Source: a virus. Taken from it: a DNA stretch of 32,309 nt. Every line of letters begins with the position of its first letter. Positions within the stretch are counted from its first letter, which is position 1. This document shows positions 3 through 23,203 of this stretch, piece after piece. The notes below the pieces were generated by a model, which saw only the letters and a program-made list of their open reading frames with translations, searched no databases and was not told the DNA's origin. The position numbers were made by a program, and so were the translations under genes. Location of the stretch: IMG/VR virus record IMGVR_UViG_3300025098_000167, positions 1 to 32,309 of that record, one strand, 5' to 3'.

Positions 3-383
3 TCAGTTGCCGAAAGGAAGAAGCAATCAGACTCATATACGACACTAATAACAGAAAACTCCGACAGTAGCGGAAAATATGAATACATAGTAGATGAAGT
101 AGCAGATACTATTTTTAGAACTACTGAGTCAGGAGACAAAATGTTTCCACAAGGAAGAAAAGCGGTAAAAGTTGTGTATACTTCAGGATATGCAGCAACA
201 CCGGAAGATTTAAAACTAGCGTGTTTTGATTTAGTTAAGTACTATTTAAAAGATGAGAGAAAACAAAATTTAACTATTTCAGGTGCACAGATACAAAATC
301 CTGTATCAACAAGTTTAAGGGAAAACATAGGCTTTCCAGACCATATTAAACGTATACTGGATTTTTATAAAATACATAAATAA
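3..383 (+). CDS. Head-tail connector protein (gp6-like), 5' truncated by window edge
   Basis: The reading frame is open from base 3 with no stop before TAA at 381-383, so the ATG at 141 is an internal methionine and the gene begins upstream of the window. About 126 residues are visible. The segment around VKVVYTSGYAATPEDLKLAC, followed by a helix ending KYYLKDER, is the signature of the HK97 gp6-like connector family. These small helical proteins form a dodecameric ring beneath the portal and join head to tail. This position, directly before the neck and tail genes, is where the family normally sits. The stop overlaps the next start as TAATG, implying coupled translation. The family call is from recognition of the motif and synteny; no alignment was run. 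Confidence 0.75.
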   Translation, partial: SVAERKKQSDSYTTLITENSDSSGKYEYIVDEVADTIFRTTESGDKMFPQGRKAVKVVYTSGYAATPEDLKLACFDLVKYYLKDERKQNLTISGAQIQNPVSTSLRENIGFPDHIKRILDFYKIHK

Positions 384-1981
384 TGGCTCTTAATATAGTA
401 GAAAGAGATATTAGAGCTGCTGTAGACAGATACTCCGATAGTGAACTAAGAAAGAAAATGGGGCAAACTTATTTACATGATATAAGAATAAGCTCTGAAA
501 ACGCAAGTGTAGCATTTCAACAAGGAGTTGTAAATGTTATGGAAGGTATGAAGTTTACTCAAGAAGAGATGAACCAAATAAACCAAAGCTATAATTCAAC
601 TTCAAATTGGAAAAATATAGTAAATAAATTATTTGGTCAAATGTCAAGAATGAGTACTGTAGTAGAAACAAATCATGAGATAAGAAGTTTCAGGCAGTTT
701 TATAAACTAGGAGTAGCAAGTAGTAGAGGTATATTTTTATTAAAAGGGTCTACTAAAGATAAAATAATAATTAGACTATATAATAATTCAAGTGAATATA
801 AAGGTACGGGCTTAACTAAGTTTAATAAGGAATTAAGAAAAGTAGCTTGGAATCTTTGGAAGGAAACGTACTTACAAGGTGTTAATACATCAGAAGGTGA
901 AAAATTACAGAATATAAGTTTAGAGAGTAGATTACCTCCTAAAAATCCAAAGTCAAAGACAGGAACAAGCGTAGCATCAGCTTTTGGAAGAGGTACTCCT
1001 TTTGCACATGATTCTGAAACAGCAGTTGGAACTTTCGGACTAGAAGAATTAGAGCAAGATTTAAGAACTAACCAAGATTTTACAGCAGCGTTAGGAGCTT
1101 TACAGACATATGGAATAAGTGTTGATGTAGTAAAAAGTGTAAAAAATAGCTTAGATTTGACTTTTGAAAAGCAAATAATTGTTATGCCCGATGGGGCAGA
1201 AGAAGAAGTCAGAGTAGTAAAAGGATCAATTAGAAAACAAGGTAAAGAGCCTGGTGACTGGACAAACATAAAACAAGACATTTTAGGAAGTAAAAGTAAT
1301 AAGAAAGAAGGAAGTTTAGCAAGGTTTTTAGATAGTGCAAATGCAAAAATAAGGGCATTAGACCCGGCAACTGCTGCAGATGCAGAAGCCAGTGAACCTT
1401 ACTCAAAAAGAGCAGGTAAAAGAGCTGCAGAAAGAATTGTAAAAGCAGCTTTAAAAGCAGAAGGAGCAAAAAGAACTAAAGGAAAAGCACCTAAGAAAGC
1501 AAAATCAGGAACTCAGTCTACTAAAATAAAAATGAGTACAGGCCTTTCTACTGTTGCAAAAGCTCAAATACTTACTATAGCAGGAGGAGCAAAACTAAGT
1601 GCTCGAAAAGGCAGAAGTAAGAGTAAGGAAGAAAAAGGCGGAAGTATAAGTCTACCTAAATTAAGAACAAACATTAATAGATCTTTAGGTGCTGAAATAA
1701 GAAGGAATATGGGGAAACCTGCTTTAACAAATAGAACAGGAGAATTTTCAAATAGTGCAGAAGTATTAAATTTAAGAGACACTGGAAGAACAATAACAGG
1801 TGAATATACTTATACCTTGACAGGAGGCGGAAAAAGTAGTAATAGGTCTCAAGTATATTCTACGTTTGAGAATTCAGGTAAGTGGCCTTCGGGGTATAAT
1901 CCGAAGCCTTTAATAGCTAAAAGTATAAGAAACTTAGCTTTAAGATATACAGAAAGAAAATTTACACTTAGGAGAGTATAA
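383..1981 (+). CDS. Virion structural protein of unknown fold (neck/tail-completion position)
   Basis: A 532-residue protein starting at a TAATG overlap with the connector gene. I do not recognise a named family over its full length. The first 190 residues are mixed helical. Residues about 300-420 are very rich in Lys, Arg, Ala and Ser and look flexible. The last 90 residues (from NRTGEFSNSAEVLNL) form a compact-looking module with TGEYTYTL, YSTFENSGKWP and a basic end, RKFTLRRV. A similar C-terminal pattern (tested-for-growth sequence, aromatic beta strand, KSIRxLA helix, RRV end) is familiar from virion structural proteins of marine phages. Lying between the connector and tail terminator, it may be a neck or head-closure component (HK97 gp10 position). 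That role is inferred from synteny only. Confidence 0.5.
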   Translation: MALNIVERDIRAAVDRYSDSELRKKMGQTYLHDIRISSENASVAFQQGVVNVMEGMKFTQEEMNQINQSYNSTSNWKNIVNKLFGQMSRMSTVVETNHEIRSFRQFYKLGVASSRGIFLLKGSTKDKIIIRLYNNSSEYKGTGLTKFNKELRKVAWNLWKETYLQGVNTSEGEKLQNISLESRLPPKNPKSKTGTSVASAFGRGTPFAHDSETAVGTFGLEELEQDLRTNQDFTAALGALQTYGISVDVVKSVKNSLDLTFEKQIIVMPDGAEEEVRVVKGSIRKQGKEPGDWTNIKQDILGSKSNKKEGSLARFLDSANAKIRALDPATAADAEASEPYSKRAGKRAAERIVKAALKAEGAKRTKGKAPKKAKSGTQSTKIKMSTGLSTVAKAQILTIAGGAKLSARKGRSKSKEEKGGSISLPKLRTNINRSLGAEIRRNMGKPALTNRTGEFSNSAEVLNLRDTGRTITGEYTYTLTGGGKSSNRSQVYSTFENSGKWPSGYNPKPLIAKSIRNLALRYTERKFTLRRV

Positions 1982-2427
1982 TGGCACTTAGAACAAAAAG
2001 AAAGAAAATAGCCGAAGCTCTTGTAGGTAAGATAAAAGAAATTGACGGGAATCACCCTTTTAATTCAAACATCTTTCAAAATGCTGATTCACGATTAGTA
2101 TTTTTAGATGAAATTCAACAATACCCAAAAGTATGCGTTGTAGCAGGAGATGAGATAAGACAATATCAACCTGGCGGATTTAAATGGAGATTTATAACAA
2201 TAACAATTAGGGCATATGTAGAAGATGCAAATGACCCTCAAGAAGTTTTGTCACTATTACTTGAAGACCTCGAAAGAGTAATTGACGATAATGACATACT
2301 AGTGTATGACGATACAGTATCGCCAAACCTACAAACAACATCTGCAACTATTACTTCAATAAGTACAGATGAAGGAGTCATAACTCCTTTAGGTATAGGC
2401 GAAATGGTAGTCGAAGTACGATATTAG
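1981..2427 (+). CDS. Tail terminator / tail completion protein (gpU-like position)
   Basis: A 148-residue protein whose start overlaps the previous stop (TAATG) and is preceded by a good Shine-Dalgarno (GGAG at about 1971-1974). It opens with a basic helix, then shows alternating strands such as KWRFITITIRAYVED and a helix with LEDLERVID, and ends in a strand (GEMVVEVRY). This size, alpha/beta pattern and position immediately before the tail-tube gene match tail terminator proteins (lambda gpU type), which cap the tail shaft and bind the neck. No catalytic motif is present. The assignment rests on synteny and secondary-structure pattern, so minor tail or neck protein remains possible. Confidence 0.6.
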   Translation: MALRTKRKKIAEALVGKIKEIDGNHPFNSNIFQNADSRLVFLDEIQQYPKVCVVAGDEIRQYQPGGFKWRFITITIRAYVEDANDPQEVLSLLLEDLERVIDDNDILVYDDTVSPNLQTTSATITSISTDEGVITPLGIGEMVVEVRY

Positions 2428-2491: not shown

Positions 2492-4045
2492 ATGGCTTTA
2501 AATCTATCAAGAAATACCTCGGTATTCGTCTCAACTGGTAATGGAGTACACTCAAGCGGTGGTTCAGTATTAAGTGTGGACGGGTTCACAGGAGGTTCAG
2601 GACATGCTGTAGGAGATGTTCTTACTTTAGGTACAACTTCTGGAAGCGGAACAGGATTAAAAGTAGTAGTAAATGCTGTTAATTCAGGAGCCGTAACTTC
2701 AGTAGCACTTATAAACAACTTTAGAGGAGCAGATTTCGTAAATGATGAAACTGCAACTCAAACAGCATCAACAGGTACAGGTACATCTTTCGCATTAGTT
2801 GTAGATGGAGTTAGCGCTCTAACTGCAGAAGGAAGTAGATTACCTACAGGACTTTTTAAAGGTAATGGCACAGATGCAAATACCTTCAAATTAGGTGTAT
2901 TAGACGGATATAGTTTCTCACAGGGTAGTGACGCTACTGATGTAACAATTAGTGAAGCAGGTGCTGCTCCAAATAGAGGCTCAAAAAGATTCAATGACTC
3001 TTTACCACCAGCAGAATGGTCTTTCCAAACTTATGTAAGACCTTTTAAACATGGTACACATAGTCACAGATCAAGCGGTACTCATGACATGGTAGAAAAT
3101 ATTCTTTGGGCTGCAATCGCAGGTAAGGATATTACTGGAGGTTCTTTAAGTGGGACTTCAGCAACTGCTGTAGTGTGTGACGCAACAGATGCAGATGTAT
3201 CTTTCGCAAGGTCTGACCACCATGAATTATTGAAACTTTCAATATTCTTTGCGTTAGAAAACACAACATACAGATTAAATGAGTGTCAAGTAAACCAAGC
3301 AGAAATTGACTTCTCAATTGATGGTATTGCTACTATCTCTTGGTCAGGAAATGCAACAACAATCGACCAGGTAAGTACCGCTGTCGAAGACCCATCAAAA
3401 GCTATAACAGTTGTTACTGATGGAACTGAAACAGTAAGTTCAGCAGCTACTTATACTGAAGCGTATAACTATGTTGATAATACTGCACCGGGCGATGGCG
3501 ACTACTTAAGAAATAAGTTATCAACTTTAAGCTTAACGCACACCAAAAACTCAGCGGGAGTATTAGAAGTTGGAGCATCAGATAGTACAACTACTTATGA
3601 TATTAATATCACAGGTGGCTCACTAACTATTGCTAATAATATTACTTACGTAACACCAGAAACTTTAGGTCTTGTAGATGTTCCAGTAGGGTCATTCTCA
3701 GGAGCTAGACAGGTTAGTGGCTCTTTGACTATGTATTTAGATACTAAGGCAAATGGCTCTAACTCGTTATTATCTGACTTAACAGCAGCTACTGACTTAG
3801 TTAATAATGCATTTGATATGAGTCTATTTATGGGCGGCGCGTCTTCTTCTACTCCAGTAGTTGAATTTGACTTACCAAAAGCTCATTTACAGATACCTAC
3901 AATTGAAACAGCAGATATTATTTCAACAACTGTTGAGTTTGCTGCTCAAGGTACTGACTTATTAACAGGGGATGAGATGACAGTTAAATATAAAGGTTTA
4001 ACAAGTCATTCTGATTCTGCATATGAAACAGACGTCACTGTATAA
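2492..4045 (+). CDS. Tail tube-like protein 1 with N-terminal beta-rich insertion
   Basis: A 517-residue, Thr/Ser/Gly-rich, strand-dominated protein beginning MALNLSRNTSVFVSTGN, a start typical of phage major tail (tube) proteins. Residues about 27-104 form an extra Gly-rich module (GGSGHAVGDVLTLG, then GAVTSVALINNFRGADFV) like the GSGY/VGDTLT-type decoration modules found in phage structural proteins. The rest contains segments that match the next gene in order: DGYSFSQ near residue 139, LNECQVNQAEIDFS near 262, NNITYVTPETL near 382 and RQVSGSLTMYL near 406. Position between tail terminator and assembly chaperones supports tail tube. A strong Shine-Dalgarno precedes the ATG. Which of the two copies makes the bulk of the tube cannot be told from sequence. 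Confidence 0.7.
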   Translation: MALNLSRNTSVFVSTGNGVHSSGGSVLSVDGFTGGSGHAVGDVLTLGTTSGSGTGLKVVVNAVNSGAVTSVALINNFRGADFVNDETATQTASTGTGTSFALVVDGVSALTAEGSRLPTGLFKGNGTDANTFKLGVLDGYSFSQGSDATDVTISEAGAAPNRGSKRFNDSLPPAEWSFQTYVRPFKHGTHSHRSSGTHDMVENILWAAIAGKDITGGSLSGTSATAVVCDATDADVSFARSDHHELLKLSIFFALENTTYRLNECQVNQAEIDFSIDGIATISWSGNATTIDQVSTAVEDPSKAITVVTDGTETVSSAATYTEAYNYVDNTAPGDGDYLRNKLSTLSLTHTKNSAGVLEVGASDSTTTYDINITGGSLTIANNITYVTPETLGLVDVPVGSFSGARQVSGSLTMYLDTKANGSNSLLSDLTAATDLVNNAFDMSLFMGGASSSTPVVEFDLPKAHLQIPTIETADIISTTVEFAAQGTDLLTGDEMTVKYKGLTSHSDSAYETDVTV

Positions 4046-4047
4046 CA

Positions 4048-4956
4048 ATGACAGCGTACAATCTACTTCGAGAAAGTAGTGTACACATCGTACACAATGG
4101 GAGTCGTTATTTAATTAAAACGACTCCTGAGGTGTCGTTCTCACAAACATTCGCGGAAGATGCATACGAAGTAAAGACTTTGCACGATCAAACAAAGATG
4201 TTTCAGGGAACAAGTATAACAAAAGCAAATCCTGCGAACTTTAGTTTTGCAGTTCATCTAACTCAAGAGAAAGATGAATCAATCGTAAAAAGTCTTCTAA
4301 CAGATTACGATACAAGTAATGGAGAACAATTATTAAAATCGTTTGACTTATATATCGTAACTGGAGAAAGCACCTTCAAATTAGAAGGTTGCGTAATTAC
4401 TCAAGGAGAGTTTAATTTAGCAAAAGGCTCACCACTTATATTAACTGTAAGTGGAGCTGCTCAAAAGCTAAATAGAGTAGGAAATGCTAGTTATTCGTTG
4501 CCAGGTTCACTGGTAAACACCAGTTCAACTAGAACTCCCACCCTATCACTTATAGATGTAGAAGTGGATTCAGTAGATGTACCGAATCTTGCTGCCACAA
4601 CTTTACAAGTGCAAAACAATATCAATTGGACTCCTTTTGAGACTTTACAAAATAGTTTGTCAGTTACTAATGCAAGTAATGCAATGTACCCGACAACTTA
4701 TACCTTAGGAGATAGAGTAGTAAGCGGAAATATTACACAATTTTTAACAAGTAATAATTCTGCTACTTTTCAATCATTTGATACTTCAGCAAATGTAGGA
4801 ATTAAGACAATAGTAAATAATTCCACTTTTTTAAATGCCAACTTAACAGGTTGTATGTTTACAAAAAGAAGCAATGTTGCTGAAGCTTACACGCAGACAA
4901 TTGACTTCCGTTTAGTTAATAGTCCCGCAAATTTAGGAACCATTATAACATATTAG
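4048..4956 (+). CDS. Tail tube-like protein 2 (paralogue of the preceding gene)
   Basis: A 302-residue beta-rich protein starting two bases after the previous stop. It matches the upstream tube-like protein in the same order: PEVSFSQ near residue 28, LEGCVITQGEFNLA near 113, NNINWTPFETLQ near 191 and RVVSGNITQFL near 223, but lacks the N-terminal insertion. Its two halves also resemble each other (strand-rich, each with a SFSQ/TPFET-like start and an xxFSF/VSGNI strand), which would fit a duplicated tube domain like phage T5 pb6, known to form trimeric rings. Two hairpins lie just inside the coding region (see separate entries). It may be an alternative tube subunit, a tube-tip or neck-proximal ring; function within the tail is inferred. 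Confidence 0.6.
   Translation: MTAYNLLRESSVHIVHNGSRYLIKTTPEVSFSQTFAEDAYEVKTLHDQTKMFQGTSITKANPANFSFAVHLTQEKDESIVKSLLTDYDTSNGEQLLKSFDLYIVTGESTFKLEGCVITQGEFNLAKGSPLILTVSGAAQKLNRVGNASYSLPGSLVNTSSTRTPTLSLIDVEVDSVDVPNLAATTLQVQNNINWTPFETLQNSLSVTNASNAMYPTTYTLGDRVVSGNITQFLTSNNSATFQSFDTSANVGIKTIVNNSTFLNANLTGCMFTKRSNVAEAYTQTIDFRLVNSPANLGTIITY
4079..4095 (+). other. Stem-loop 1 in start of tube protein 2 gene
   Basis: GTGTAC (4079-4084) pairs with GTACAC (4090-4095) across a five-base loop. It lies about 30 bases after the ATG at 4048 and four bases before a second, stronger hairpin. Confidence 0.4.
4100..4127 (+). other. Stem-loop 2 in start of tube protein 2 gene
   Basis: GGAGTCGTT (4100-4108) is the exact reverse complement of AACGACTCC (4119-4127), giving a nine-pair stem with a ten-base A/T loop, unusually stable for this AT-rich DNA. 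It is not followed by a T run, so it does not look like an intrinsic terminator. A role in tuning translation is possible but unproven. Confidence 0.45.
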
Positions 4957-4966
4957 GAGAAAATAA

Positions 4967-5413
4967 ATGGATTTAAAATCATTACTGGTAGACAGTAAAA
5001 CTACTTGGGCTGAGTTCCCAGGATTAGATGGATTTGAAGTAGAACTTGCAAATTTATCGAGAAAAGAATTAGTAAACTTAAGAAAAAAGTGTACTTCAAA
5101 CAAGTTCAATAGAAAGACAAGAGCATTTGAAGAGTCTTTAGATGATGAAAAGTTTGTAAAAGAATTCACAGAAGCAACTGTTAAAGGGTGGAAAGGGTTA
5201 AAATTAGGATATCTTGAAGATTTAATACTTGTGGATTTAAAAGGACAAGATCCAGAAATGGAAATGGAATTTTCTGAAGAGAACGCTCAAATACTAGTAG
5301 AAAACTCATCAGAGTTTGATAACTGGCTCAATGAGGTAGTCTTTGATTTAGAAAACTTTCGCACGAAGCAACAAGGAAAAGTTATTAAAAAGTCTGGAGA
5401 CGTTTCTAAATAA
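4967..5413 (+). CDS. Tail assembly chaperone, first component (gpG-like)
   Basis: A 148-residue protein with a good Shine-Dalgarno (GGAG near 4955-4958) before the ATG. The pattern is typical of tail assembly chaperones lying between tube and tape-measure genes: a short strand-rich N-terminus (WAEFPGLDGFEVELANLSRK), a helix with RKKCTSNKF, then a TVKGWKGLKLGYL segment and an acidic helical C-terminus (FSEENAQILVENSSEF). In lambda, gpG coats the tape measure and the frameshifted gpGT recruits tube protein. The next gene is in the +1 frame and lacks a good ribosome site, so the C-terminal tail of this protein may be swapped by recoding (see separate entry). Confidence 0.75.
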   Translation: MDLKSLLVDSKTTWAEFPGLDGFEVELANLSRKELVNLRKKCTSNKFNRKTRAFEESLDDEKFVKEFTEATVKGWKGLKLGYLEDLILVDLKGQDPEMEMEFSEENAQILVENSSEFDNWLNEVVFDLENFRTKQQGKVIKKSGDVSK

Positions 5414-5427
5414 TAAAGATATAGGTA
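5352..5427 (+). other. Candidate +1 programmed frameshift window between the two chaperone genes
   Basis: The frame of the downstream chaperone is open from 5352 (after a TAG at 5349-5351), 25 codons upstream of its ATG. The first chaperone reads AAC TTT CGC at 5354-5362. Slippage of tRNA-Phe from TTT to TTC (5358-5360), while waiting at CGC, a codon rarely used here, would enter that frame. The resulting linker would begin ARSNKEKLLKSLETF, which looks protein-like. No classical -1 heptamer can serve, since the shift needed is +1 or -2. Confidence 0.4.
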
Positions 5428-5759
5428 TGTCAAAAGATCAGTACTTGCTTATGTGTGAGCAAACTGGAGAAGAAGTAGACTGGGATAAATGCCCCCCTGA
5501 TTGGGAGGATTTTCCAGAGTTTATAGTAACTGTTTTAAATATATTTAATAGTTTAGGTGATAGGATTTATGGAGATGTAGGTTATGTGGGCAAAGATTTC
5601 ACTAACTTACAATTCCTTATAGAATTGAATGGTATAGAGCAACATCAAATGGATTTTCTTTTTGATGTAGTACTGTGGTTAGACAGTAGAGCTATCGAAA
5701 AATCTCAGAAAAGATTAAAAGCTGAGTACGATAAGATGAAAAATAAAAATGGCAGATAA
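5427..5759 (+). CDS. Tail assembly chaperone, second component (gpT-like)
   Basis: A 110-residue acidic protein whose start, MSKDQYLLMCEQTGEEVD, followed by PPDWEDFP and a helix with IFNSLGDRIYG, is the recognisable pattern of the second tail assembly chaperone or the T half of G-T fusions. It sits directly before the tape measure, as expected. The ATG at 5427 has no convincing Shine-Dalgarno: AGG lies only two bases away. Reading upstream in this frame stays open to 5352, so it may be made largely as a frameshift extension of the previous gene, or by reinitiation after the stop at 5411-5413. Its end overlaps the tape-measure start by 11 bases. Confidence 0.7.
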   Translation: MSKDQYLLMCEQTGEEVDWDKCPPDWEDFPEFIVTVLNIFNSLGDRIYGDVGYVGKDFTNLQFLIELNGIEQHQMDFLFDVVLWLDSRAIEKSQKRLKAEYDKMKNKNGR

Positions 5760-8700: not shown

Positions 8701-10431
8701 CAGGCAGTATCTAAACAGGCAAAAATGAATGCTTCAGCGACAGCAGCACAAATTACTCTTTCTAATCAACAAACACAGATTAATTTAAGTAGACTACAAA
8801 ATGAAGCAAAACTACAAGAACAAACCTTAGGACTTACTGCTGGACAATTTAAAACTGAATCCGAGCTTGCAGAAATGACTAGTGAGGAGCAACAGAAGTA
8901 TGCTACCTTACTTGAAAAACGAGTAGAAATAGGAAAACAATCAGAGAAACAAATAGGAACAGAGGAAGAGTTAGCATTAATAGGACTTCAGGCAAATGCT
9001 CTTGCAACAGCTCAACTTGCAACTATAAAACAGAAACAAGCATTTTTAGCTACGGAACTAAAGACAACTCAAATATTATCAAATGTAAGTAAAGGACTTG
9101 GTGGAAAACTATCACCTGCACAACAATTAGAAGCACAGAAAAAACTAGCTCAAAATAAGATAAAGAATTTTGAAGACGAATTAGCGTTATTGAACTCAAG
9201 ATTAGCTTTTGAAATAACAATAGCAGATGCAAGACTTACCGCAGCTGGAGTAGATAAAACAATTCGAGAAGAAATTATAGCAGATTTAAAAGAACAACAA
9301 GCAATCCAAGCAGATATATTAGGATTAAAAGTTAAAGGAGCAAAAGAAGAGGCAAAAACAGTCGGAGCAAGTAACTTTACAGGATTATTAAGCACAGGTA
9401 CTTTTGCAGACCAAAATACAGCAGCTGAGACAGCTAAAACTGAGTTAGATACAACGGCTGGAGGAACTACTCAAGGTAAATTAGAAATAATGAATGAGTT
9501 TATGAGTCCAATGAGGGATGCTTTAAGTGAACTTGGACCTGGAGGAGATTTAATAAATGCAGCTCAAGAAGGAATCTTAACGTTAGCAGCCGCTTTTGAT
9601 GTTGTGGGAAGTTCTACTTCTACAGCAGCAGATAAGATGGCAGCAGTCGGAGCAGCTGTAACAGCTATAAGTGCAATAATGCAAGCAAGTTCTAAAGCCC
9701 AAGTTGCAGAGATAGATAATCAGATAAAAGCAGAAAAGCAAAGAGACGGTAAGTCAAAAGAATCTGTAAGTAAGATAGCAGCAATGGAGAAAAAGAAAGA
9801 AGGTATCCAAAGAAAAGCTTTTGAACAAAAGAAAAAGATGGATATTGCTTCAGCAGTAATTAGTACAGCTTTGGGTGCTGCAAGAAGTATGGAAATGGGC
9901 GGAATTATAGGACCTATACTAGCTGCTATGACTATAGCTATGGGTATGGCTCAAGTAGCAATAATTAAAAAGCAACAGTTCCAAGGAAGCTCAGGCGAAG
10001 TTTCTGCTCCAAATACTGCTCTACAATTAGGTAAAAGATCAAATAGAGTTGATATATCCAAAGAAGCAGGAGCAGGAGAAGCTTCGTACTTACGTGGCGG
10101 ACAAGGAGTAGGCTCTAATGCTAATAACTTTACAGGAATGTCGATGGGTAAAAAAGGGTATGCTAATGGTGGAGAAGGTATAGTAGTCGGAGAAAGGGGA
10201 CCTGAAGTTATTGCACCATCAGAACCTGTAGATATTATACCAAACTTTGCGTTAGGCGGACAAGGACAAAATATTACTTTTAACATAAACGCTGTAGACG
10301 GACAAAGTGTACAAAATATGTTAATGGATCAACAAGGAACAATTGTAGGCGTAATTAGAGACGCCGCAAACTCATATGGTGAGGACTTCTTACCAGATGT
10401 AAATATTGGTTATGACATGGGAGGTTCATAA
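5749..10431 (+). CDS. Tail tape measure protein
   Basis: A 1560-residue protein, the second largest here, that sets tail length and is expelled during DNA entry. Residues about 83-290 hold the conserved core: an Ala-rich segment (GAYATLAANVFAATAAFNAL), LGRASGDNLTLLADRI, SVGASAGFSGEQLEGLA and LEPEILDELGIFVRLDD, as in many tape measures. Long Gln/Lys/Glu-rich helical stretches follow. Hydrophobic segments lie near residues 523-561 and 1364-1405, possible membrane-active parts. The C-terminus carries GIVVGERGPEVIAPSEPVDI near residue 1477, a common tape-measure ending. At roughly 1.5 angstrom per residue the tail would be about 230 nm long. No lysozyme or peptidase domain was recognised. The ATG overlaps the chaperone gene by 11 bases and lacks a strong ribosome site, implying coupling. 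Confidence 0.93.
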   Translation: MADNKVIIELLISEKGKKVSMVEKQTAKLTETTKKHRKAQKDSTKEGGKYHTQQKAIHQTNLSSAKGFSKMNQTIGEGGSSGLVGAYATLAANVFAATAAFNALRQASQVQQLVEGLEALGRASGDNLTLLADRIKDAAGQAIALDQALRVASVGASAGFSGEQLEGLATVARSAAIALGRDVGDAIDRLARGAAKLEPEILDELGIFVRLDDASAKYAASIGVATSELTRFQQRQAFANEIIEQGGQKFSEIGNNVDVSPFDALAATLGDLSRTFTDFFNTVLGPIASFFSNNTIALTGFFMAITKGIMNQALPMLNQFAASAQRGAMLQVKQAQAAGRRIDKEIQGQRNLLKPIKNSELAYNQLFGKMKQGTATAAELKLMEQSLAKSIRQRQAALLGGSAKTLAARQAELATTVQQQQELQKLIKLENSRAGKTGDIRTATAGAKSKRSEQAVFRELDKDPSFKGYMRAFGLSGQAQKKYRKNLGDSINSTKLFGFNLGFLGKAANKARPAIFGFGLTSKIAIKGIFTAIPVIGQLLFALDLLIVGLKNTIKFFAGFRGEASRLEKATDALNSQTQFYAETQSASAEATKNMSESLLTSSKATAELLNTTREFSVAQEESRKKSTVFGKVLQGAFVNINFVWKLFTTAFNGFDGILERIGIRFQMFAIDAVKDLRFLLNLYIRATNLMNRGTGIEPIELISAEGQEAKLEALKNRLKEMTVERTKLATASTLAIFGKQAVSSAELESFTTVLQSGGAAAKELQEFLGTDNINKFAQQIAEANSSNSLAGFSPAIQKVIENLGLMEDGTISSAEIITLLSSSLENGTKNTIDQGDAINSLGETFKNSGQKINEFLNSFNKTTSVTTFNGLLKTINDDFERLDTQTAGAAIFQQFEGANASFKSLVSNGETLAPLLEKQKEELKKISDAGGKVTDKVKEEIAIRLGIPAAIKTEINSLENLVGTINKALLFDKARLDTLKQQEQAVSKQAKMNASATAAQITLSNQQTQINLSRLQNEAKLQEQTLGLTAGQFKTESELAEMTSEEQQKYATLLEKRVEIGKQSEKQIGTEEELALIGLQANALATAQLATIKQKQAFLATELKTTQILSNVSKGLGGKLSPAQQLEAQKKLAQNKIKNFEDELALLNSRLAFEITIADARLTAAGVDKTIREEIIADLKEQQAIQADILGLKVKGAKEEAKTVGASNFTGLLSTGTFADQNTAAETAKTELDTTAGGTTQGKLEIMNEFMSPMRDALSELGPGGDLINAAQEGILTLAAAFDVVGSSTSTAADKMAAVGAAVTAISAIMQASSKAQVAEIDNQIKAEKQRDGKSKESVSKIAAMEKKKEGIQRKAFEQKKKMDIASAVISTALGAARSMEMGGIIGPILAAMTIAMGMAQVAIIKKQQFQGSSGEVSAPNTALQLGKRSNRVDISKEAGAGEASYLRGGQGVGSNANNFTGMSMGKKGYANGGEGIVVGERGPEVIAPSEPVDIIPNFALGGQGQNITFNINAVDGQSVQNMLMDQQGTIVGVIRDAANSYGEDFLPDVNIGYDMGGS

Positions 10432-11147
10432 TGGCAAGTTTTAGTACTTTTGCAAACAGACTACCGGACCCAAATTATGGAGTATCAGAATTTGGAAATA
10501 ATGTAAACAGCGCGGTTAACTATGGCCCTGGCTTTGCTTCAGTCAAATATTCTGCTGAATATCCAACCATGGTTTCTAGAACAAATAGTGGCAGAGTTGT
10601 TACCAGGTCAATAGTAGGACAAAAATTAAAAATAGCAATAACTTATAATCCACTAACTAGAGATCAGTTTGAACCAATATACTCTTTTTTACAAGAAAAG
10701 AAAGGTAGACTAAAACCTTTCTTTGTAGTACTACCACAATATACTGACCCTAGAGATACTACTTGGTCTGGAAGCATAACTGTTGATGGTTCAATTACTG
10801 CAGGTACTGATAACTTTTTAGCAGACCACTCTTCTTTAACAGGACAACCAAAAAGAGGAGATGTTTTTACTATTACAGATTCTGGAAACAGTAATCATAA
10901 GAAACTTTACACAGTAACAAGAGTACAAGATAATTCAACTTACTATAGTGGCGAATCTCAACCTTCAGCCTCTCAATACCGAATCTATTGTTCCCCAAAT
11001 ATTTTATATGATGTAACAGACAGTTCGATTTTAAAGTTTGAATCACCGGAAATAAGAGTAATTCAATCAGGAGATGTTAGAGAATATAGCCTAGGAACAA
11101 ATAACTTATATAGTTTTTCACTTAATTTAGAAGAGGCTTTACCATAA
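10431..11147 (+). CDS. Distal tail / minor tail protein (gpM-like, Dit)
   Basis: A 238-residue protein right after the tape measure, starting at TAATG. The segment LTRDQFEPIYSFLQEKKGRL followed by PFFVVLPQY closely follows the lambda gpM pattern of a helix ending in a Gly, then an aromatic strand with a P-x-Y. The last strand (YSFSLNLEEALP) is also like the gpM family end. Between them lies an extra beta-rich insertion of about 90 residues (from DTTWSGSITVDG to YRIYCSPNILY) that could be an OB-fold or carbohydrate-binding-like decoration. The family joins tape measure and shaft to the tip hub. The insertion makes it about twice the length of gpM. Confidence 0.7.
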   Translation: MASFSTFANRLPDPNYGVSEFGNNVNSAVNYGPGFASVKYSAEYPTMVSRTNSGRVVTRSIVGQKLKIAITYNPLTRDQFEPIYSFLQEKKGRLKPFFVVLPQYTDPRDTTWSGSITVDGSITAGTDNFLADHSSLTGQPKRGDVFTITDSGNSNHKKLYTVTRVQDNSTYYSGESQPSASQYRIYCSPNILYDVTDSSILKFESPEIRVIQSGDVREYSLGTNNLYSFSLNLEEALP

Positions 11148-14100
11148 TGGCAACCGAAAGAGATATAAATAGTACAATTAGATCTATGCTTATAGATAAT
11201 GAAGCATTTGAATACGCACACCTAATAAAATTTGAAAGACCTCAATTACCTGGTGCTAATAATACATTTTCAACAAATGCAAATAGATTCGCATATATCA
11301 CAGATGGAACTAGAGACCTTTCTTTTGATGATGGCTCTACTAATGATGCGGGTTCGGCCAATGGTACACAAATATATAGAGCTAATAAACTTTTAAATAT
11401 ATCAGGGTATAAAGAAAGTATACAAGCAAAAGCTGATACAATGACACTCACCTTAGCTTCTGAAGTATTAGGTACTACGGTACCTGCTAATTTAACTTTT
11501 ACAAGTAATACAATTACTACCAATACTGTAGGAGTTGACTTTGTAGAAGAAGGTTTAAAAGAAGGAGATAAAATAAAATTAGAAGCTAACGATGGAGCTG
11601 GGTCAAATCATAATAAACATTTTCTAATTACAGGATTCTCAAATTCAAATCAAAGTATAGCAATAGAAACTTTAGATGATTCTTTTACTGCAAATAGTAC
11701 TGGAGAGCTTTATAATGTATCTATTCAATCAGAAGAAATTAAAGGGCCTCTACTCGCTAGAGGTACAGATTTAGCTAATCCAAGTTTTTTAAATAAAAAT
11801 GTTGAAGTACATAAAGTATTCCTTGACCCTGAAACAGGTCAAATAAAAGGAAATGCAAGTATATTAATATTTAAAGGATTAGTCACCAAAGCTAATATAA
11901 CAGAAGATCCTACTAGGTCAAGTAGAGTTCAATGGACACTAAGTAGCCACTGGGCAGATTTTAATAAAGTTCAAGGAAGAATGACATCTGATGAAATACA
12001 TAGAGCTTTAAATGCTAGTGGTAGTCCTCAGAGAGACGCAGCATTAAAAAAAGAATACGCAGATGATATGGGATTTATGCACGCAGATACAAGTGTAAAT
12101 CTTGTTGCTACCTATAAAGAAAAGTATCAAGAAATGGAAGTAAAAACTTCTAAGCACGGGTTGTTTGGTTTAAAAACTAAAGTCCAGACAAAGATGGTAG
12201 ATAAAGTTAGGGATAGAGATGTCGACTTAAAAGTTGATTTAGTGTCTAAATATCTTCCTGTTGTATATGGTGTTCGTAGACTTCCTGGTATTCCTGTATT
12301 TGCAGACACTCCTTCTAATGACCCAGATACACTTTATGTTCTCTACGCTATAGCGGAAGGAGAGGTAGAGGCTATATATGATATCTATATTGATGGAGAG
12401 CCTTTAGTATGTTTAAATAAAGAAGACCAAGATAGTAGAAGCATTACAGGAAGTAATGCGGATAGTAGTGGAGTTTTATGTGCGGGTAGGGCAGATAGAG
12501 GAGAAACAATTAGAGGAACTAGTAGTTACTCGTCAAGTTTACAAAATTATGCTACAGGAAAGCAATCGAAATTTAACGATACTGAAAGAGCTTTTGATAA
12601 AAACTTTTATGACCAGTATGATGTACAAGAAATCGATTATTTAGTAGATTCAGGAAGTTATTATGACTATTATAACTCAGGTAGTGCTACATCTTATACT
12701 GGAAACACTCAAAATACTGTCGGTATAAGAGACGGACAAACATTTCAAATAAGCGTTCCACAACCTATTAAATTATGGTTTCATGCAGGAAAACACGACC
12801 AAACAGCAAACTCAAAACTTATAGATATAGCAACAGGAGCAACAAAATTTAAACGCCAATTAGACTACTTTAATAACTCAAATGGAGAAGAGTATTGGTC
12901 AACAAATCATAGATTACTAGACACAGCATATGTACTAGCAGAAATAACTGTAACAGAAGAAAACTCTGATATACCAGAACTGGAATTTGTTGTTAGAGGT
13001 AGAATACACGAAGGGTATAACTATGACTTTACGTATAGACATGATGATAAAGCATATTCAAGTGAAAGCTCTGCTAATTTTACTTTAGGAGAGTCAGTAA
13101 CTTTTTATAGAACAAGTGATGATACAGCTTTAAATACCACTACAGTAAGAGATGTATATGAAGAAACGGATCCAAGAACAGGATTAGTTTATAGTAAGAT
13201 TAGATTTGCAGATAGACCTTTTAATTCTACTAATTTTACTTATGTAGATGGAGCACCAGTACATACTGAATTTTATGCAAAAGATTCAAGTAATAATATG
13301 TGGCACATGCTAACTTGGAACCATAACGATATAGATAGTTCAGATGCATATTTACCTAATCAAGGGTCTAATATTTCAAATATTGCAAGAAACTCTTCTA
13401 CAGGAAAAATAGAATTGAGTGTTGGAGATACTAATTTAAGTGGAGAGACAAAATTCAAAATAGTAGGTACAGGTAGTGGACAATTAGAAGATATTGAAAA
13501 TTCTACCCTTACAGGAACCTACTCGAACCAAGTAGTAACTTTAGATGTCTACGTAGGTACTTTATCTGGAAGCGACACTATTTCTAGTGGCAGACTTATT
13601 GGAGCTAAACAAGTTAAATTGCCTTCATCTGCTTCTTCTACAGATGATTTCTATAACGAACAATTTATTGAAATAACTTCAGGTCAAGGTGTCGGAGAGA
13701 AAAGAAGAATTACTGATTATAATGGTACTACAAAAGTTGCTACTTTAAAAACCAATTTTATTGACCATCCTAATGGAAGCAGTGATTATAAAGTATTTGG
13801 AAGAGGAAGTGATTTACGTTCAGGTAATAACCCAGCACTACACACATTAGACTACTTAACAAACGCAACTTTTGGAAAAGGTTTAGAACTAGAAAAAGAT
13901 ATTGCTTTAGATACTTTTACTAATTCAGCAAGAACTTGCGATTCACGTTCAGATGTTACTATAGCAACTACTTCTTCGCCAACAGTCGGAGATGAGTATA
14001 TATTAACAGATGATGGAACAAGTTCTGGAAATATACTTGCAAGAGGAAAAATTAAAAGCTCTACATTAAATGGAACACATTATTCAGTAGTACTAGAAAA

Positions 14101-22867: not shown

Positions 22868-23203
22868 ATGTCAGCAGGAAGCTACAATTTCACATTAGAA
22901 CAGGGAGCAACATTAGACAGAACTGTTACAGTACAGGAAAGTGGCTCGGCTATGGATTTGACAGGATATACTCCAAGAATGCAAGTTAGAAGTACACACG
23001 ATTCTTCAACTGTATTACTTACTGTAACTTGCAGTATTGCTAACGCTTCAGGAGGTATAATACGTCTACAAGGCAGTGCAAGTACTACAGCTTCTATTGA
23101 AGAAGGAATATACGTATACGACTTAGAAATTGAGTCAAGTACTGGAGTTGTTACTCGTTTATTACAGGGTAATGTAACAGTCACTCCAGAAGTAACAAGA
23201 TAA
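22868..23203 (+). CDS. Small Ig-like virion protein (BppU N-terminal-like)
   Basis: A 111-residue protein with an excellent Shine-Dalgarno (GGAGG) and the first gene after the sigma70 promoter. The pattern SYNFTLEQGATLDRTVTV, MDLTGYTPRMQVRS, then a strand with YVYDLEIESSTG and LLQGNVTVTPEVTR is a widely distributed phage single-domain protein resembling the N-terminal Ig-like domain of baseplate upper protein (BppU). It lacks any long C-terminal helix or fibre, so it is a stand-alone domain. It probably decorates the virion or links appendages. Family recognition is strong, but the exact role is unknown. Confidence 0.65.
   Translation: MSAGSYNFTLEQGATLDRTVTVQESGSAMDLTGYTPRMQVRSTHDSSTVLLTVTCSIANASGGIIRLQGSASTTASIEEGIYVYDLEIESSTGVVTRLLQGNVTVTPEVTR

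Follow-up and report, generated by a model that had tools for sequence, protein, structure and literature searches.

A T5-type tail tube gene and its probable tip-ring paralog in an uncultured siphophage

Results

Two adjacent tube-type genes

The window analyzed here is the whole of a 32,309-base virus record (IMG/VR record IMGVR_UViG_3300025098_000167), which is the source of a pair of tail genes, one encoding a 517-amino-acid (aa) tail tube protein and the other a 302-aa protein related to it. The pair consists of adjacent forward open reading frames (ORFs) at 2492–4045 and 4048–4956 with 2 bases between them, exactly where a preliminary description of the sequence had placed them. That description regarded the two as tandem paralogs and suggested a mixed tube, a special end ring, or a trimeric ring organization like that of pb6 in phage T5. 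The features of the locus are collected in Table 1.

Table 1 Features of the tail gene region in the window
Feature	Position	Strand	Basis
T5 p142-type tail terminator	1981..2427	+	Pfam PF23818 E 1.5e-34; phrog_3907 E 6.5e-33
T5 pb6-type tail tube protein, 517 aa	2492..4045	+	phrog_3575, phmmer to T5 pb6
Insert of ~105 residues in first β-hairpin of tube protein (residues ~19–127)	2546..2872	+	N-terminal matching and family lengths
First tail tube domain, pb6-type	2873..3391	+	residues 122–300 align to 16–185 of DT57C pb6 homolog 8hqz_p
Second tail tube domain, pb6-type	3512..3991	+	residues 345–498 align to pb6 198–351
T5 p140-type baseplate tube protein, 302 aa, two tail tube domains, no decoration	4048..4956	+	PF23779, phrog_3889, model
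Tail assembly chaperone (first)	4967..5413	+	phrog_313 E 1.6e-16
Tail assembly chaperone (second)	5427..5759	+	phrog_3914 E 3.3e-17
T5 pb2-type tape measure protein, 1560 aa	5749..10431	+	phrog_3779 E 1.5e-95
T5 pb9-type distal tail protein	10431..11147	+	phmmer to T5 pb9 E 9.6e-8; phrog_1302 E 2e-13
T5 pb3-type baseplate hub, 2204 aa	11147..17761	+	phmmer to T5 pb3 E 9.5e-95
T5 p132-type collar protein	22868..23203	+	phrog_1084 E 9.7e-32; phrog_3304 E 2.1e-14

The 517-aa protein matches PHROG 3575, annotated as ‘major tail protein’, with an expectation value (E) of 2.4e-78, and phmmer aligns it to the solved T5 pb6 at E 3.1e-62 in two stretches that take in both domains in order, in agreement with the suggested pb6-like ring organization. 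We regard its weak phmmer matches to elongation factor Tu, at E 0.018 or poorer, as fortuitous. The 302-aa protein matches the Pfam family PF23779 Baseplate_Tube_p140 at E 4.2e-24, with 85.6 bits against a curated cut-off of 27, and phrog_3889, ‘base plate tail tube protein’, at E 5.1e-23, which gives the suggested end ring a concrete identity as the T5 p140 type. Its gene lies between the tube gene and the chaperones, and a p132-type collar gene is present. The 302-aa protein matches 191 phage records, all under 60% identity. Close relatives of both proteins are common in IMG/VR: 197 stretches were confirmed for the 517-aa protein and 156 for the 302-aa protein, and the best 80 of 197 and the best 80 of 156 were kept. 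A search of genome_contigs gave 19 pattern matches, none of which was confirmed as a relative, and we therefore propose no host.

Homology of the two proteins

The short motifs alone are weak evidence of homology, as direct BLASTP between the two proteins gives E 0.087 and profiles of the window’s own close family give Prob 9.5 and E 0.0034. The question was decided by deeper profiles, in which nine T5-like isolate proteins were added to each of the two family profiles. With p140 as the query these give a local E of 2.8e-5 and a global E of 1.4e-8 (residues 1–302 with 108–500), and with pb6 as the query a local E of 5.4e-4 and a global E of 6.7e-7 (1–302 with 108–483). All 100 column shuffles stayed below the actual score in all four settings, reversed-profile controls gave E 0.41–0.73, and no control comparison with the terminator and distal-tail profiles had an E below 0.007. 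In 22 of 49 additional loci a p140 model also picked up the pb6-type neighbor with an E of at most 1e-3 (for example 1.1e-5 in L198 and 9.2e-5 in L182), and tblastn with the 302-aa protein finds the adjoining tube gene in one of 10 relatives (E 3e-4). At the level of profile comparison the proteins are confirmed as full-length homologs, which upholds the claim of tandem paralogs; the four motif pairs that had been noticed in the same order in both proteins fall in register in the deeper alignment.

Structure of the 302-aa protein

The 302-aa protein was modeled with a predicted local distance difference test score (pLDDT) of 74.7 and a predicted template modeling score (pTM) of 0.75. Residues 4–302 of the model align to T5 p140 (9ioz_A) with Z 22.2 and 4.3 Å over 271 residues, and to T5 pb6 (9iny_A) with Z 21.6 and 4.9 Å over 278 residues; Z is 19–22 against the two-domain T5 proteins overall. 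The tube proteins of P74-26 and SH-Ab15497 align to residues 5–302 with Z 20.8 and 20.1. There are eight full-length matches, after which Z falls to 10.9 and below, and against single-domain tubes such as lambda gpV about one half of the model is covered. These matches were obtained by re-examination of Foldseek matches with VIA-align, and families missing from them may still match. The tight turn of the first hairpin is present in 71 of 72 distinct p140-type proteins, and one is shortened.

A domain inserted near the N-terminus of the tube protein

A tblastn search with the 517-aa protein retrieves 903 phage records, and the match begins at residue 113–130 in all of the 40 + 40 matches listed. 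In an ungapped comparison the N-termini of all nine T5-like pb6 proteins best match the first residues of the window protein, and the match picks up again near residue 128, which places an insert of about 105 residues within the first hairpin. MAFFT had set the T5-like N-termini beyond the insert, and we relied instead on the ungapped comparison and on insert-free relatives: the more distant uncultured tubes L192, L194, L199 and L200 have the same N-terminal strand and hairpin without the insert. In all 76 distinct family proteins of at least 500 aa, the window’s included, 129–146 residues precede V136, compared with 31–34 residues ahead of the matching strand in T5-like pb6 proteins, and 46–62 residues run from E472 to the end. 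These lengths imply that members of the close family generally carry the insert and lack a C-terminal immunoglobulin (Ig) domain. The count replaced an earlier one by strict pattern, which lost 30 of the 76 sequences; three ORFs shorter than 500 aa were dropped, namely L111, cut by the end of the locus, and two split-gene pieces in L103. The C-terminal Ig-like decoration of the pb6 family, which is variable within the family and not required, was not found in the 517-aa protein.

Sequence conservation is lower in the insert than in the two tube domains (mean pairwise identity among 30 representatives 0.55, against 0.77 and 0.70), and the insert is modeled as a β domain with a block pLDDT of about 70–87. 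It is probably a decoration of the tube, presumably on its outer surface. Searched alone, the insert had no tblastn match in phages at E 1 and only matches at E 0.3 and above in PHROGs, these two being the collections covered.

Three records deserve mention beside this family. At L103:1954–3535 the tube gene is broken into two ORFs (383 and 112 aa) by a real frameshift or by an assembly error. L281, a 108,868-base contig of about T5 size, is an uncultured T5-type record with p140 present, and its tube protein of 383 aa is too short for the insert or an Ig domain. The 41-kb record PQ773600.1, named as a Corynebacterium phage, carries at 10536–11555 a tube gene like those of enterobacterial T5-like phages and is possibly mislabeled or contaminated.

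Halves of the proteins and order of events

The N half of the p140 type matches the N half of the pb6 type at E 2.6e-5 locally and 7.3e-7 globally, and the two C halves match at E 0.0059 and 0.018, all of these above all 50 shuffles. Between the N and C halves of the p140 type E is 0.16, and shuffles were as good in 8 of 50 local and 3 of 50 global comparisons; the corresponding numbers within the pb6 type are 11 and 17, and for the p140 C half with the pb6 N half 37 and 45. For the p140 N half with the pb6 C half, 4 of 50 shuffles were as good locally, and the global E of 0.017 lies above its 50 shuffles. Sequence likeness between the halves of either protein was rejected on these shuffle-level scores. 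The earlier impression of similar halves in the shorter protein is thus correct for the fold, the model being two-domain, and not for the sequence.

The half-by-half scores point to domain fusion first and gene duplication second. A single domain would have been duplicated and fused, and the fused gene would then have been copied in tandem to give a tube gene and a tip-ring gene; in the window’s lineage the tube protein would afterwards have acquired a domain in its first hairpin. The T5 authors, who report 9% identity, infer from structure that the pb6 gene was duplicated (PMC10038345).

Tube genes without an adjoining end-ring gene

Among 144 distinct pb6-type proteins of at least 340 aa with at least 1.1 kb downstream, p140 adjoins the tube gene in 139 and is absent there in five. 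L193, in which the frames of the tube gene are broken and no tube ORF reaches 340 aa, is outside these counts. The five tubes form three groups: L196 alone, 36–41% identical to the rest, with the same protein in L197; L235, L240 and L288, 67–89% identical to each other; and L292 (tube gene L292:7420–8541), 36% identical to the rest, on a contig too short to include the tip. In all three groups a chaperone-like ORF lies 106–126 bases downstream of the tube gene and shares 40–57% identity with the first chaperones in the window and in the other groups. A p140-family search of five whole records of these groups (G011, G020, G021, G022 and G023) gave no match; the uncultured records checked carry no completeness estimate.

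Thirty-four distinct loci have at least 7.5 kb downstream, 235 shorter occurrences having been skipped. Both p140 and a pb9-type distal tail protein are present in 32 of them, and two (L226 and L288) have neither; as the loci are mutually related, this amounts to two losses and not to 34 independent trials. The distal tail family phrog_1302 was found in 8/8 p140-bearing records and 0/2 p140-less records. The joint absence of p140 and the T5-type distal tail protein suggests that the sister ring is part of the tip rather than the tube and, on two losses, p140 appears to be replaced together with the tip. In 17 records examined for the p132 family, eight matches were strong and one was weak and partial, and all eight strong ones carry p140. 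Most of the seven p140 carriers that have no strong p132 match end before its usual place, and G013 reaches past it.

L226 (G011:C1:16000–35823, in the record of L197) is a mosaic tail in which the terminator, the tube, the chaperones and the N-terminal part of the tape measure are of T5 type and p140 is absent. Its tube protein matches the pb6 family phrog_3575 at E 3.5e-95, and its tape measure matches the T5 family at residues 25–528 and another family at 1256–1618. The tape measure is followed by lambda M- and L-type minor tail proteins (PF05939, E 1.7e-25; PF05100, E 5.7e-59), by phrog_30 and phrog_32 proteins, which we take to be lambda K and I, and by an ORF of more than 3000 aa. L288/L293 (G020) has a tape measure of 2442 aa that matches the T5 family only at 60–369, and the two genes after it fall in the unnamed PHROGs 8917 and 8610.

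Surrounding tail and head genes

The terminator, tube, end ring, chaperones, tape measure, distal tail, hub and p132-type genes follow the order seen in four T5-like isolates. The hub of 2204 aa has a long C-terminal extension compared with the solved T5 pb3 of 949 aa, which is perhaps a central fiber in one chain. Between hub and collar the window has five ORFs of 108–1027 aa, compared with one fiber gene in the isolates. The collar protein falls in the same two PHROG families (phrog_1084 and phrog_3304) as p132 of Enterobacter phage KKP_3711, and in a five-sequence file phmmer aligned it to two of four proteins in the p132 place of T5-like phages (E 2.5e-6 and 1.8e-5). A phmmer search of solved chains with the same protein did not find T5 p132, which counts against the p132 label.

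Upstream, the 532-aa protein at window 383–1981 lies where T5 has its tail completion protein (255 aa in KKP_3711), and no family matched it above chance level. In L001, a close relative, the upstream terminase, HNH, portal, protease plus capsid and head-tail adaptor genes show the PHROG families and order of KKP_3711, and the protein in the tail-completion place gave no family match. The protease and major capsid protein, two genes in KKP_3711, are apparently fused there in one 693-aa ORF (L001:5054–7135).

Discussion

We read the locus as the tail and tip genes of a T5-type uncultured siphophage, in which the 517-aa protein is the pb6-type tube protein and the 302-aa protein is its p140-type paralog, forming one ring at the tip, with a probability of about 0.93. 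The identities of the two proteins, their homology, the gene order, the insert and the two joint absences of p140 and the distal tail protein are established by the sequences analyzed; ring symmetry, copy number, virion position, seeding and the order of events are inferred. The 517-aa protein, with its two fused domains, would assemble as three copies per ring, and the rings would stack along the tape measure. Three copies of its ancient paralog per virion would make up a single ring that links the first ring of the tube with the tip and may also seed growth of the tube. Below this ring would lie a hexamer of the distal tail protein and a trimer of the hub, with a p132-type collar probably around the ring. 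Scaling the 40 rings of T5 by the length of the tape measure (1560 aa in the window, 1218 aa in KKP_3711) gives about 51 rings, which corresponds to an estimated ratio of roughly 150 (517-aa protein) to 3 (302-aa protein) copies.

It also seems reasonably probable that p140 is a tip-side adaptor that is exchanged with the tip. On this view T5-type tubes could attach in its absence to tips of the lambda type or of other types, with replacement of the tape measure’s C-terminal part as well, and lineages that retain the T5-type distal tail protein would also retain p140; the ring would remain undecorated even when the decoration of the tube moves. That its p132 part is not borne out lowers the probability of this proposal.

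Several observations weigh against these interpretations. For the 517-aa protein the model obtained is poor (pLDDT 47.4, pTM 0.35), too poor to show two domains unaided; its fold therefore rests on homology to pb6, and its structure matches were used as support for pb6 only. By sequence the 302-aa protein is only weakly similar to the solved T5 p140 (phmmer E 7.5e-4). The argument for fusion before duplication is carried mainly by the N halves, as the global score of the C halves (0.018) is no better than that of the p140 N half with the pb6 C half (0.017). The 32 loci with both p140 and the distal tail protein are related, the negatives are two groups on incomplete contigs, and p140 may lie elsewhere in the genomes of the p140-less groups. 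Strong p132 matches occur in just 8 of 15 p140 carriers, so a coupling of p140 and p132 is not borne out. Finally, the lineage is known from sequence alone, and the roles in the virion are assigned by homology.

A mixed tube, with both proteins alternating or forming separate stretches of the shaft, would suit the tandem genes and the two-domain tube fold of both proteins. It is nevertheless highly improbable, as the homolog of the 302-aa protein is a single tip ring in the structures of T5 and DT57C (PMC10038345, PMC10713586), three groups have a tube gene with no p140 beside it, and the p140-less loci that show the tip genes also lack the T5-type distal tail protein. The pb6-like tube and the special end ring of the preliminary description thus stand together, and its mixed tube does not. 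The absence of decoration on a tube fold would also be compatible with a ring at the head-proximal end of the tube, either a second terminator or a neck ring, but a T5-type terminator is already encoded just upstream of the tube gene and T5 p140 sits at the tip (PMC10038345), and we regard this placement as extremely unlikely.

That two unrelated tube-fold genes came to lie side by side by chance would account for the very low pairwise sequence similarity, and a CASP14 paper calls T5 p140 a protein without sequence homology to pb6 (PMC8616854). Such convergence is very hard to reconcile with full-length profile homology that no shuffle equaled, with the correspondence of N half to N half, or with the p140 model finding the adjoining pb6-type protein in nearly half of the further loci, and we give it very little credence. 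The reading of a pb6-type tube with one p140-type tip ring identifies the tail of a virus group found in many metagenome records as T5-type and corrects the impression of an unusual double tube. Both protein types are present in a distant lineage of uncultured viruses whose structural genes are in T5-type order, and natural p140-less relatives offer a test of the purpose of the ring.

The pair is of a kind already known from T5, whose tube consists of 40 stacked pb6 trimers followed by a p140 trimer inside a p132 dodecamer, a pb9 hexamer and a pb3 trimer (PMC10038345); DT57C has the same tip layout, with one trimeric ring below the last tube ring (PMC10713586). T5 pb6 (PDB 5NGJ, 7QG9, 9INY) resembles the window tube protein in its two fused tube domains, membership of PHROG 3575 and gene place, and the best listed T5-like records are about 35–39% identical to the window protein over some 375 residues. 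The window protein differs from T5 pb6 in having the first-hairpin insert and no C-terminal Ig domain, which is also absent from three of nine sampled T5-like tube proteins (375, 381 and 383 aa), and some T5-like tube proteins without it have been described (PMC5717097). T5 p140 and its DT57C counterpart TTMP (PDB 7QG9, 9IOZ, 8HQZ) share with the 302-aa protein their length, two-domain fold, PF23779/phrog_3889 membership and gene position directly after the tube; identity to T5 p140 in the structural alignment is about 18–20%. The T5 authors explain the missing Ig domain of p140 by the surrounding collar (PMC10038345). The two-domain tubes of P74-26 and SH-Ab15497 (PDB 8ED0, 8XAN) align to the whole 302-aa model but, unlike the window end ring, are major tube proteins by their PDB titles; that of P74-26 forms three-copy rings from two-domain subunits (PMC10034513).

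No description of p140-less T5-type tubes was found in the parts of the literature surveyed, which were mostly open-access papers. The nearest case is the mosaic Alishewanella phage LSH1 (PMC13243795, 2026), which has a T5-type two-domain tube with its decoration elsewhere than in T5 and tail end proteins that match lambda models; the word p140 was not found in the main text of that paper. What is new here, in comparison with these systems, is the occurrence of p140-less pb6-type tubes in three uncultured groups, and a tube protein with a domain of about 105 residues in its first hairpin and no C-terminal Ig domain, next to an end-ring sister that has kept the tight turn.

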